Below are positions 45,352-48,407 of a DNA stretch of 64,000 bases, piece by piece (position 1 is the first letter of the stretch; each line of letters begins with the position of its first letter). Position numbers and translations under genes: made by a program. Source of the stretch: Arthrobacter sp. V1I9 (GTDB lineage: Bacteria; Actinomycetota; Actinomycetes; Actinomycetales; Micrococcaceae); NCBI RefSeq assembly GCF_030817075.1, contig NZ_JAUSYU010000001.1:558001-622000 (forward strand), given 5' to 3'. The notes under the pieces were generated by a model that was given only the letters and a program-made list of their open reading frames with translations, was not told where the DNA came from and did not search any database.

Positions 45352-46680
45352 ATGAAGAAACTCAGCAGGCTCAGCGTTTTCGGCTACGGCGCCGGCGACG
45401 CAGCCAACAGCATGATCATCAGTACCGGGAACATGTTCCTGCTTGTGTACTACACGGACGTCGCGGGCATCGGCGCAGCGGCGGCAGGAACGCTGCTGCT
45501 GGTTGCCCGGGTCTTTAACGCCTTCACCGATGTGGCGGCCGGCCGCATCGTGGACCGCGTCCACAGCAAACGGTGGGGAAAGTTCCGCCCGTTCCTGATG
45601 TTCGGGTTTGTTCCCCTGCTGCTGAGCGTGGCTGTGTTTTATGTTCCGGACGTCGACCCAGCCATGAAACTGCTTTACGCGTCCTGCACGTATGGGCTCG
45701 TGTGTGTTACCTACAGCATGGTTAACGTGCCATATGGCTGCCTGGTGGGGGCCATGACGCAGGACGCCAAAGACCGCGCGCGGCTTGCCGGGGCAAGGAC
45801 CATCGGCGGTTTGTCGGTCGGAGCCACCCTGGGCTTTTTTATCGCACCGCTCTTGGGTGCCGGCCAGGATATGCAGCAGATCTTCACCTGGCTGACCCTG
45901 GCCTTCGCCGTCGTGGGGTCCCTGCTCTACATCTTCACGGGCACCGTCTGCGTTGAGCAGGTCTACGGCAGCGTCCCCAAAATCACCCTTCGCCAGAGCA
46001 TGGCGGCGCTGAAGGCAAATTCCCCGCTGGTGATCCTCTGCGTCAGTTCCGTCCTTTTCGTCACGGGAACGTCCGCGACGGGTGCCTCCCAGTTCTACTA
46101 CCTCCGCGATGTCCTGTCCCGGGTGGACCTGTTCCCGGTCATGGCCGCTGCGCAGGTGGTCATTACCCTGACGCTGGCTGTGCTGATGCCGCGTCCTGTG
46201 GCCCGCTGGGGCAAGCGGGCGGTCTACAGCGTTGGCGGAGGATTCGGGGCGTTGGGCGGCGTACTGGTTTTCCTGGCCCCGGCGGACGCACCACTGCTCG
46301 GCCTGTTGGGCCTCGTCCTGGGGCTCCTGGCTTCTGCTTCGGTCAGCATCGTGACGTGGGCCCTGATCGCCGACACCGTGGAATACGGGGAGTGGAAAAC
46401 CGGCGTCCGGGTCCAGGGCATCAACTACGCCCTTTTGGCCGCCACCCGGAAACTGGGCATGGGATTCGGGGCCGGCGTGGTGGCCTTCTCGCTCGCCTGG
46501 GGCGGTTACGTCTCCGGGACGGCTGAGCAGACGGACGCGGCTACCCTCGCCATCAGGGCGGCGGCAGGCCTGCTGCCGGGGGCCCTGGTGCTGACATCCG
46601 TCGGGATCATGTATTGGTACCGCCTGACGGACCAAAAGCACGCGGAGCTTGTGGCCAGCCTGTCGCGTGACGCGACGTAA
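45352..46680 (+). CDS. GPH-family (MelB/YicJ-like) sugar:cation symporter
   Basis: A 442-residue membrane protein with about twelve hydrophobic segments. The N-terminus is of the GPH pattern FGYGAGDAANSMI, with NAFTDVAAGRIVDR between helices 2 and 3, WGKFRPFLMFG, and VNVPYGCLVGAMTQD. The C-terminal YGEWKTGVRVQGI is the family's conserved acidic motif. It imports a glycoside, pentoside or hexuronide with H+ or Na+. ATG at 45352 with GGAAG upstream. Although next to rhaB, its class I operator ties it to the uronate regulator, so a uronide cargo is more likely than rhamnose. Confidence 0.92.
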   Translation: MKKLSRLSVFGYGAGDAANSMIISTGNMFLLVYYTDVAGIGAAAAGTLLLVARVFNAFTDVAAGRIVDRVHSKRWGKFRPFLMFGFVPLLLSVAVFYVPDVDPAMKLLYASCTYGLVCVTYSMVNVPYGCLVGAMTQDAKDRARLAGARTIGGLSVGATLGFFIAPLLGAGQDMQQIFTWLTLAFAVVGSLLYIFTGTVCVEQVYGSVPKITLRQSMAALKANSPLVILCVSSVLFVTGTSATGASQFYYLRDVLSRVDLFPVMAAAQVVITLTLAVLMPRPVARWGKRAVYSVGGGFGALGGVLVFLAPADAPLLGLLGLVLGLLASASVSIVTWALIADTVEYGEWKTGVRVQGINYALLAATRKLGMGFGAGVVAFSLAWGGYVSGTAEQTDAATLAIRAAAGLLPGALVLTSVGIMYWYRLTDQKHAELVASLSRDAT

Positions 46681-46684
46681 CACT

Positions 46685-46713
46685 TTGCGGCCGCGGCGGG
46701 CTGCGGTTATGGT
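46685..46713 (+). promoter_or_regulatory. Promoter of the DAHP-synthase leader
   Basis: TTGCGG (46685-46690) and TATGGT (46708-46713) are separated by 17 bp. The expected transcription start falls at about 46720-46721, the first base of the leader-peptide ATG, so the leader would be translated from a leaderless mRNA. Confidence 0.55.
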
Positions 46714-46720
46714 TCATGGC

Positions 46721-46780
46721 ATGACAAACCGTTGGTATGCGTATTTTTCGTTGGCTCTGGAGGGGCCCGCGTCTAACTGA
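46721..46780 (+). CDS. Leader peptide with aromatic codon cluster (attenuator)
   Basis: ATG at 46721 to TGA at 46778-46780 encodes 19 residues, MTNRWYAYFSLALEGPASN. Trp, Tyr, Tyr and Phe fall within five codons (residues 5-9), all three products of the aromatic pathway. Directly after the Phe codon begins the 5' arm of a 10-bp stem (46750-46759). The gene downstream makes DAHP synthase, the first enzyme of that pathway. This is the layout of ribosome-mediated attenuation. There is no Shine-Dalgarno site, in line with the promoter position. Confidence 0.85.
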   Translation: MTNRWYAYFSLALEGPASN

Positions 46781-46858
46781 CACGCATCCAACTTTCCTTC
46801 AGAGCCAACAGGGCAGAGATCATTCTCTGCCCTTCGCCGTTTCTCCGGCGGGTTCTGA
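46750..46858 (+). promoter_or_regulatory. Alternative RNA stems of the DAHP-synthase attenuator
   Basis: Stem A pairs GTTGGCTCTG (46750-46759) with CAGAGCCAAC (46800-46809). Stem B pairs GGGCAGAG (46811-46818) with CTCTGCCC (46825-46832) around ATCATT, and is the best terminator candidate, though only a short TT and later TTT follow. Stem C can pair TCAGAGCC (46799-46806) with GGTTCTGA (46851-46858), using one G-U pair. A and C exclude each other. How they set termination or translation is not resolved by eye. Confidence 0.65.
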
Positions 46859-46892
46859 CTGGGCCCGCTCCTATCTGGAACAGGACCCGAAC

Positions 46893-48032
46893 ATGAGCAC
46901 CGCAACAGCCCCCGCAGGCACCACTGCCGGCAACCTTCGCAGGGAACCCACCGAAAAATCGACGTCCAACCTGCGCGTCAGCGAATTCACAGCGCTGCCC
47001 ACTCCGCAGGAACTCATCACCGAACTGCCGTTGGACGCCCGGGTGGCAGGCGTCGTCGAACGCGGGCGTGACGAAGTCCGCGCCATCATGGACGGCGTGG
47101 ACGACCGGCTGCTGGTGATCGTGGGACCCTGCTCCATCCACGATCCCAAGGCAGGGCTGGAGTACGCCCGGCGGCTGGTCAGCCAGGCGGAAAAGCACAA
47201 GGAAGACCTGCTGATCGTCATGCGGACTTACTTCGAGAAGCCGCGCACCACCGTGGGCTGGAAAGGCCTGATCAACGATCCGCGGCTGGACGGCAGCCAC
47301 GACATGGTCACCGGGCTCCGGACTGCACGGCACTTCCTGCAGCAGGTCACCGCGCTCGGGCTGCCTACCGCCACCGAATTCCTCGAGCCCATCAGCCCGC
47401 AGTACATGGCGGACCTCATTTCCTGGGGCGCCATCGGGGCCCGCACTACCGAGAGCCAGATCCACCGGCAGCTCGCCTCCGGACTCTCCATGCCCATCGG
47501 GTTCAAGAACGGGACCGACGGCGACCTTCAGGTAGCCATCGATGCATGCGGGGCGGCCGCGGCGGCCCAGGCCTTCCTTGGCATTGACGGGGACGGCAGG
47601 GCCGCGCTGGTTGCCACCGCCGGCAACCCTGACACCCATGTCATCCTCCGCGGCGGCCGCAAGGGACCCAATTACTCTGCCGCCGACGTCGAGGCCGCGT
47701 CGGCGAAGCTCGCCAACAAGCAGCTGAACCCGCGCCTCATCGTTGACGCCAGCCACGCCAACAGCGGCAAGAGCCACCACCGCCAGGCTGAGGTGGCGCT
47801 GGAAATCGGCTCCCAGCTCGAGGACGCCGGGGCATCGGCGCAGGCCATCGCCGGGGTCATGCTGGAAAGCTTCCTGGTGGGCGGCGCGCAAAACCTCAAT
47901 GTCGCGGAGCACGCGGCCGGCCGGTCGGAACTTGTGTACGGGCAGAGCGTAACGGACGCGTGCATGGACTGGGACGTTTCGGTTTCAGTGCTGGACCAGC
48001 TGGCCGCATCCGCCCGCAAGCGCAGGAGGTGA
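46893..48032 (+). CDS. aroF: 3-deoxy-7-phosphoheptulonate (DAHP) synthase, class I
   Basis: A 379-residue class I (AroAI-alpha) enzyme joining phosphoenolpyruvate and erythrose-4-phosphate, the entry to aromatic amino acid synthesis. Signatures are VGPCSIHDPKAGLEYARRL, RTYFEKPRTTVGWKG, IGARTTESQIHRQLASGLS and the metal/substrate site PRLIVDASHANSGK. The first 30 residues are a variable Ala/Thr leader. ATG at 46893, with AGGA eight bases upstream, is preferred; the open frame continues upward through the attenuator. Feedback class (Phe, Tyr or Trp sensitive) cannot be told; the leader's mixed codons hint at response to all three. Confidence 0.94.
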   Translation: MSTATAPAGTTAGNLRREPTEKSTSNLRVSEFTALPTPQELITELPLDARVAGVVERGRDEVRAIMDGVDDRLLVIVGPCSIHDPKAGLEYARRLVSQAEKHKEDLLIVMRTYFEKPRTTVGWKGLINDPRLDGSHDMVTGLRTARHFLQQVTALGLPTATEFLEPISPQYMADLISWGAIGARTTESQIHRQLASGLSMPIGFKNGTDGDLQVAIDACGAAAAAQAFLGIDGDGRAALVATAGNPDTHVILRGGRKGPNYSAADVEAASAKLANKQLNPRLIVDASHANSGKSHHRQAEVALEIGSQLEDAGASAQAIAGVMLESFLVGGAQNLNVAEHAAGRSELVYGQSVTDACMDWDVSVSVLDQLAASARKRRR

Positions 48033-48194: not shown

Positions 48195-48407
48195 ATGTCG
48201 GCAGAACAGAACTTCTCCAACGCGAAGTTCCTGACCGTGGCTGAAGTAGCCCAGGTCATGCGCGTCTCCAAAATGACCGTCTATCGGCTGGTCCACTCCG
48301 GCGACATGCCGGCAGTGCGGTTCGGCCGCTCGTACCGGGTACCCGAGACCGCGGTGGAGCAGTACCTCAAAGGCGCCGTAGTGGACGGCCACACGGAAAC
48401 CGCCTGA
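48195..48407 (+). CDS. bldC: BldC-like MerR-type helix-turn-helix protein
   Basis: A 70-residue protein that is almost all DNA-binding domain: FLTVAEVAQVMRVSKMTVYRL (helix-turn-helix), then VHSGDMPAVRFGRSYRVPE (wing) and AVEQYLKG. This is the compact BldC architecture of actinobacteria, a developmental regulator in Streptomyces that binds cooperatively to direct repeats. In a non-sporulating relative its role is unknown. AAAGGAAAA precedes the ATG at 48195. The gene is monocistronic; a TTGGCC...TATCTA promoter-like pair lies at about 48074-48101. Confidence 0.9.
   Translation: MSAEQNFSNAKFLTVAEVAQVMRVSKMTVYRLVHSGDMPAVRFGRSYRVPETAVEQYLKGAVVDGHTETA

Follow-up and report, generated by a model that had tools for sequence, protein, structure and literature searches.

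A Trp-containing leader peptide and a probable AroR-type attenuator before the class I DAHP synthase gene of Arthrobacter

The class I DAHP synthase (DAHPS) gene, aroF, of Arthrobacter sp. V1I9 is preceded by a short ORF carrying Trp, Tyr and Phe codons and by a series of conserved helices, some of them mutually exclusive, that extend to the SD of the gene. We analyzed this region within a stretch of 64,000 nucleotides, hereafter called the window, and in related loci. Sequence comparison and folding models make it very probable that the region is a ribosome-mediated leader-peptide attenuator of the AroR type. The explanation that best accounts for the whole, and that we consider likely, combines such an attenuator with a leaderless start, a switch between two helices, A and C, and an inferred relay to the SD.

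The aroF upstream region

A 212-base gap separates a sugar-transporter gene (MFS_2) from the class I DAHP synthase. It contains a promoter-like pair, a 19-codon ORF and strong inverted repeats reaching the DAHPS start at 46893 (Table 1). The positions given in an earlier note on this DNA for TTGCGG, the 17-nt spacer, TATGGT, the ATG at 46721, the peptide and stems A, B and C were all right. Stem A lies where it had been placed (46750-46759:46800-46809) but comprises 14 contiguous pairs (46750-46763:46796-46809) instead of 10, and starts two bases past the Phe codon rather than directly after it.

Table 1. Features of the aroF leader region, in window coordinates
Feature	Position	Strand	Evidence or remark
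-35-like TTGCGG	46685-46690	+	3/6 matches to TTGACA; TTGnnn 16-19 nt before TAnnnT in 50/57 family leaders
-10-like TATGGT	46708-46713	+	17-nt spacer from -35; would put transcript start approximately at leader ATG 46721
Putative leaderless leader peptide ORF, 19 codons, MTNRWYAYFSLALEGPASN	46721-46780	+	59/59 family loci; homologues in other families
P1 5′ arm, inside the sensor codons, with one bulged nucleotide	46731-46741	+	own arm beats permuted, 0/500; 69% alignment pairing
Sensor codons W5 Y6 A7 Y8 F9 (TGG TAT GCG TAT TTT)	46733-46747	+	U-ending Tyr/Phe codons kept
Stem A 5′ arm (GUUGGCUCUGGAGG)	46750-46763	+	95.0% of cells paired; two-sided changes in 5/14 pairs
P1 3′ arm	46783-46792	+	pairs with 46731-46741; same evidence as 5′ arm
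Stem A 3′ arm, includes stem C 5′ arm	46796-46809	+	alignment of 51
Stem C 5′ arm	46799-46806	+	91.1% of cells paired; two-sided changes in 2/8 pairs
Stem B hairpin, terminator-like, without U-tract	46811-46832 (46811-46819:46824-46832)	+	98.7% paired; two-sided changes in 7/9 pairs
Small hairpin M	46835-46850 (46835-46838:46847-46850)	+	100% paired; two-sided changes in 3/4 pairs, 5 cells in total
Helix E, one G-U	46847-46869 (46847-46852:46864-46869)	+	99.3% paired; two-sided changes in 3/6 pairs, 5 cells in total
Stem C 3′ arm	46851-46858	+	same alignment evidence as stem C 5′ arm
Hairpin D over aroF SD	46861-46888 (46861-46866:46883-46888)	+	own arms beat permuted, 0/500; 77.3% paired
SD-like AGGAC of aroF	46882-46886	+	strict SD-like before aroF in 49/63
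Class I DAHP synthase (AroFGH type, aroF)	46893-48032	+	TIGR00034 473 bits, above cut-off; PF00793

The consensus promoter scanner called no promoter in 46500-47000. Of 63 non-redundant leaders, 58 have the start of their last TAnnnT at -12 or -13 (counted without a shuffled control), a position that supports the leaderless start proposed earlier from the promoter-like pair. An SD-like site was seen at -20 to -4 of the leader in 6 of the 63, as against the 49 with a strict SD-like site (GGAG, GAGG or AGGA) before aroF. Leaderless leader peptides are described for Actinobacteria in PMC8079986.

A further ATG, at 46737 inside the leader, is in frame with DAHPS and gives a 431-aa ORF; automatic annotation could place the DAHPS start there and mask the leader. 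We rejected it as the gene start, which would add 52 residues, as, by a rough script, 10 of 57 family leaders keep this frame open. Just 3′ of DAHPS, positions 48195-48407 carry a gene for a small HTH_17 DNA-binding protein. A search revealed a class II DAHP synthase encoded elsewhere in the same genome, and one is present too in C. glutamicum, the control in this search. The class I enzyme may well be the accessory, regulated one of the two.

Leader peptides in related genomes

Two more places in the window have short ORFs with four aromatics in five codons, hence an aromatic-rich composition alone is little proof of function. Conservation is more informative: a class I DAHPS occurs in 59 of the 149 genomes drawn from the same family, and the leader stands before all 59, which rules out a chance ORF and bears out the idea, put forward in the earlier note, of an attenuator-type leader peptide before DAHP synthase. 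The family leaders read RWYA(Y/N)F or QWYAYF, then ALE(G/E) or a near form, and within the collection searched the nearest named relatives belong to Arthrobacter and Pseudarthrobacter. Other families of the order show the same plan with changed residues (RWYAYF..ALEGPA, RWFTYA..APEGPA, RWYWRF..APAAA and RWYWRF..APGGA). Leader variants recur across Actinomycetes, class-level examples including RRYPYF..APGGA, YWRFIEAPGGA and YFWFS.PAPGGS, and two Corynebacterium records have a QRFYF..AP leader, consistent with the published Phe-Tyr-Phe of AroR. No leader was found in nine genomes examined from family f4, which are small and have one or two DAHPS copies.

In total, 182 of 219 DAHPS loci passed the script; among the 219, some genomes are present both as a named and as an unnamed copy. 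Among the 37 failing loci, 13 have a leader-like ORF without a gene start by the rule used and 24 are without leader (one of these, L203, has one by eye); the script found 15 leaders in a further 20 loci. A length filter of 160-192 nt kept 151 of the 182, and 63 were left after removal of sequences more than about 90% alike. Of these, 51 entered an alignment made from sequence only, the 12 omitted being divergent (L043, L046, L049, L052, L099, L187, L205, L207, L210, L211, L225 and L232).

Some individual loci depart from the common pattern. G409 has three class I DAHPS genes (L115-L117), with a leader at L115 only according to the script. In L002 and L151 the 5′ arm of A carries a one-base insertion; the C-terminal part of the leader is altered and the aromatic codons are kept. 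L177 (NZ_JADHDY010000003.1), titled Sporosarcina beigongshangi, combines a 79% identical DAHPS with a leader exactly of the Arthrobacter type, and its title may be mislabelled or its assembly mixed. The pattern match L060, inside a 790-codon open frame, was taken as chance.

A covariance model comprising A, B and M was built from 47 of the 51 aligned sequences. It matched 60 of the 149 family genomes, namely all 59 with a class I DAHPS, partly by construction since some training sequences came from these genomes, and G040, a weak match (E 0.008) without leader that was taken as false. The absence of matches from the other 89 family genomes is not by construction. In the class, 37 of 394 genomes were matched, compared with 78 of 394 having a class I DAHPS match. 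Seven of these 37 matches, all in family f35 (L269-L272 and L280-L282), stand before another gene: the leader element is of the same kind and the gene 3′ to it is different. The protein encoded there in L269 has 307 aa, matches DAHP synthase weakly and contains a chorismate mutase domain, and the other f35 loci look similar by eye; in several f35 leaders, few aromatic codons are still present (MDRCSVF, MNRCFAF).

Codon choice in the leader

We then compared Tyr and Phe codons between leaders and enzyme genes. The 182 leaders, a redundant set, use TAT 314 times and TAC three times for Tyr, and TTT 166 times and TTC 22 times for Phe, whereas matched parts of the DAHPS genes from the same 182 loci have 4 TAT, 907 TAC, 29 TTT and 1246 TTC. 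The 63 non-redundant leaders gave 103 TAT, 3 TAC, 52 TTT and 13 TTC. A milder bias was observed in three window genes, DAHPS included (6 TAT, 25 TAC, 6 TTT and 39 TTC). Pairing does not account for the U-ending choice at codons 8 and 9, as both lie outside all described helices. Ribosomes may stall sooner at U-ending codons, which are read by wobble.

TnaC, an arrest peptide, is the model for another way of sensing, in which the nascent chain would respond to free aromatic amino acids. The Arg before the aromatic run, kept in many leaders, would suit such a peptide. At the stall, however, the chain would be only 4-8 residues long, and residues and their order differ between families (RWYAYF, RWFTYA, RWYWRF, YWRF). 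Since third positions are kept while residues vary, codons rather than the peptide are implicated, and we regard nascent-chain arrest as very improbable.

Conserved and mutually exclusive helices

The segment 46721-46892 folds with a z of -5.5, and equal stability was reached in 0 of 200 shuffles. No Rfam family (riboswitch, T-box or other leader) matched in the 64-kb window at gathering score. In the alignment of 51 leaders, the structure {A, B, E} had 97.0% of cells paired, with two-sided changes in 15 of 29 pairs, and the structure {P1, C, B, M, D} had 87.1%, with two-sided changes in 21 of 37. Nine of ten whole-structure measures were reached by 0 of 500 shuffles and the tenth by 22 of 500, and permutation of the arms among the 51 sequences weakened all seven helices, at most one permutation in 500 being as good; these values may be inflated by relatedness and by the structure being taken from one of the sequences. 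Slid partners paired in 34-56% of cells. The presence of the leader in all family loci and the two-sided changes in A, B and C are what the earlier note had proposed to look for in relatives.

Stems A and C are mutually exclusive through their common arm 46799-46806, as are M and E through 46847-46850; E has, in addition, its 3′ arm in common with D, which in the window itself contains one C-A mismatch. The telling point of the alignment is that two mutually exclusive predicted helix pairs, A/C and M/E, are each conserved in both members. Accompanying changes illustrate this: the M/E arm GGCG became GACG in L041 and GGCA in L015, in both cases with both partners changed along, and the A/C segments of family f13 went jointly from CAGAGCC to CGGAGCC. 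For M and for E such two-sided changes are scarce, amounting to 5 cells in either helix. That a conserved short ORF and stable hairpins merely protect the mRNA, without any regulation, is hardly credible given the conserved exclusive helices, the sensor codons and the coupling to DAHPS.

Switching by ribosome position

The 51 sequences were folded in four states. A ribosome covers about 15 nt ahead of its P site, and an early stall, with the ribosome at codons 5-6, was modelled by blocking nucleotides up to just before A. With the stall at Trp5/Tyr6, A exceeded a probability of 0.5 in 50 of 51 sequences and C in one. A ribosome at the stop codon inverted the result, A exceeding this value in none and C in 48. 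The competition between A and C over their common arm, which the earlier note had proposed, is thus upheld in the model: as in trpL-type leaders, where 2:3 and 3:4 pairings compete, ribosome position would decide between the two, as judged from alignment and folding.

With the stall at Phe9, 15 of the 51 sequences had A above 0.5 and 46 had C above it. The 5′ arm of A is partly covered by a ribosome standing at this codon, which makes Trp5 and Tyr6 the well-placed sensors; early stalls are predicted to switch the RNA and a Phe9 stall mostly not, which does not fit an equal sensing of Trp, Tyr and Phe, all three of which, according to the earlier note, the one peptide could sense. Without ribosome, 40 of the 51 sequences had A above 0.5, 11 had C and 3 had P1. 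The off state of the model therefore needs a translating ribosome, and the preference for A over P1 renders a role of P1 doubtful; P1 paired in 69% of cells in the alignment. Helix E passed 0.5 in only five of the 51 sequences in the stalled state and in a single one in the stop state.

The favoured attenuator would work as follows. On a transcript starting at the leader ATG the ribosome would begin without an SD. When charged Trp or Tyr tRNA is scarce, it would stall at codons 5-6, block P1 and free 46750-46763, so that A forms and occupies the arm needed by C. With ample tRNAs the ribosome would reach the stop codon, A would be blocked and C would form around B and M.

The output step

How such a switch would act on aroF can be read in different ways. 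Were B an intrinsic terminator, as the earlier note supposed, ribosome position would set termination at about 46832-46845. PMC11802643 describes the attenuation of C. glutamicum aroF as acting on transcription, and real T-runs follow B in g20 relatives (L043, L046-L049) and in the seven f35 loci (TTTT to TTTTTT), or stand in place of B in Corynebacterium L205 and L207 (by eye). In the aligned set of 51, from which the T-run relatives L043, L046 and L049 are excluded, the 8 nt after B contain only 2-4 T, the terminator scanner called none at B, and B is excluded by none of the modelled structures, exceeding 0.5 in 51 of 51 sequences in all four states. The U-tract terminator excluded by an antiterminator, typical of trpL, is not what we find: the 51 aligned sequences have no U-tract and A leaves B intact. 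Persistence of B in every modelled state and the scarcity of T make a regulated intrinsic terminator in the window unlikely, and according to the folding model stem B is probably not one here.

Termination could otherwise depend on Rho, which in the replete state would bind the untranslated stretch past the leader stop unless prevented by a stalled ribosome or by A. Such control was proposed for actinobacterial cys leaders without terminators in PMC1262725, and a U-tract is absent here. It would not account, however, for the conserved helices C, M, E and D that extend to the SD, and we hold Rho-dependent attenuation to be improbable.

Control of the SD is the natural reading, since D joins the segment just 3′ of C to the SD region, its own partner is the best and its 5′ arm overlaps E. 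In the favoured attenuator, C and M would presumably leave 46864-46869 free, D could then mask the aroF SD and expression would be low. With A formed, C would be lost, and E might form and open D, giving high expression. In folding of the 51 sequences, SD openness was 0.40 whether the ribosome was stalled or at the stop codon (p = 0.96). When E was forced against M, M was favoured by a mean of 3.9 kcal/mol and E in 4 of 51; with E, openness at positions -15 to -7 before the start was somewhat higher (0.54 vs 0.47, p = 0.005), with 23 of 51 up and 7 of 51 down by more than 0.1. Family f22, which is without M, fits this direction weakly (4/10 up, 0 down, p = 0.08; 10 of 18 loci used, four without start by the rule and four with doubtful starts being omitted), and f35 (7/7 loci used) shows it reversed (5/7, p = 0.016). 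The inverse logic, with C and E together as ON state, was discarded since it contradicts feedback, not on the strength of data. As nearest-neighbour folding fails to reproduce the SD step, a mainly translational output, at initiation, is held as an even guess.

Relation to known attenuators

An aromatic-codon leader directly before a class I DAHP synthase gene is the arrangement of AroR, the leader peptide and attenuator before C. glutamicum aroF (Neshat et al. 2014, as cited in PMC11802643 and PMC4046766). The same place and plan suggest common descent of AroR and the window element, and the Corynebacterium loci L205 and L207 have a stem A-like pairing by eye. According to these two sources, AroR has Phe-Tyr-Phe without Trp and a response to Phe, not Tyr, is reported, whereas the window leader contains Trp. 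L205 and L207 end in a T-run; the window, in contrast, has none and has conserved helices M, E and D up to the SD. AroR itself is presented as a translational regulatory leader peptide in PMC7356990 and in terms of transcription in PMC11802643.

Other actinobacterial leaders are alike in part. The mycobacterial polycysteine leaderless short ORFs (Canestrari et al. 2020, as summarized in PMC9031893) also attenuate downstream genes through regulatory codons; they differ in using cysteine and in their genes, and the likeness is one of description. The trp attenuators and LEU element (Seliverstov et al. 2005, PMC1262725) share regulatory-codon leader peptides, complementary triples (trp) and an SD-pairing stem (LEU), with other genes and sequences; for the phenylalanine or tyrosine operons of its Actinobacteria, the text of that paper available to us gives no conserved RNA structure. 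The earlier note had called the design perhaps undescribed. AroR before aroF was already known, but a Trp-containing leader before DAHPS was not found described in the literature searched, mostly outside subscription papers. The window element is well conserved and very probably an attenuator of the AroR kind; what is new is that it contains Trp, is widespread and has conserved helices, a putative relay, that extend to the SD.

Implications

As a tentative generalization, to which we give slightly less than an even chance, Actinobacteria may possess a class-wide sensor consisting of a leaderless peptide rich in Trp, Tyr and Phe, written in UAU and UUU codons that are scarce in the enzyme gene, and of a relay to a DAHPS SD more than 100 nt away through helices that exclude one another (A, C, M/E, D). 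It would be a translational attenuator of the first shikimate pathway step, of which Corynebacterium AroR and the T-run forms would be transcriptional versions. The contrast between leader and enzyme codons is a neat natural example of codon choice, perhaps selected for sensing, and the helices provide a defined, testable RNA relay. The element is also of relevance to strain engineering for aromatic products. Our results suggest that a single mixed leader peptide commonly controls the first aromatic step in Actinomycetes and is no peculiarity of Corynebacterium.
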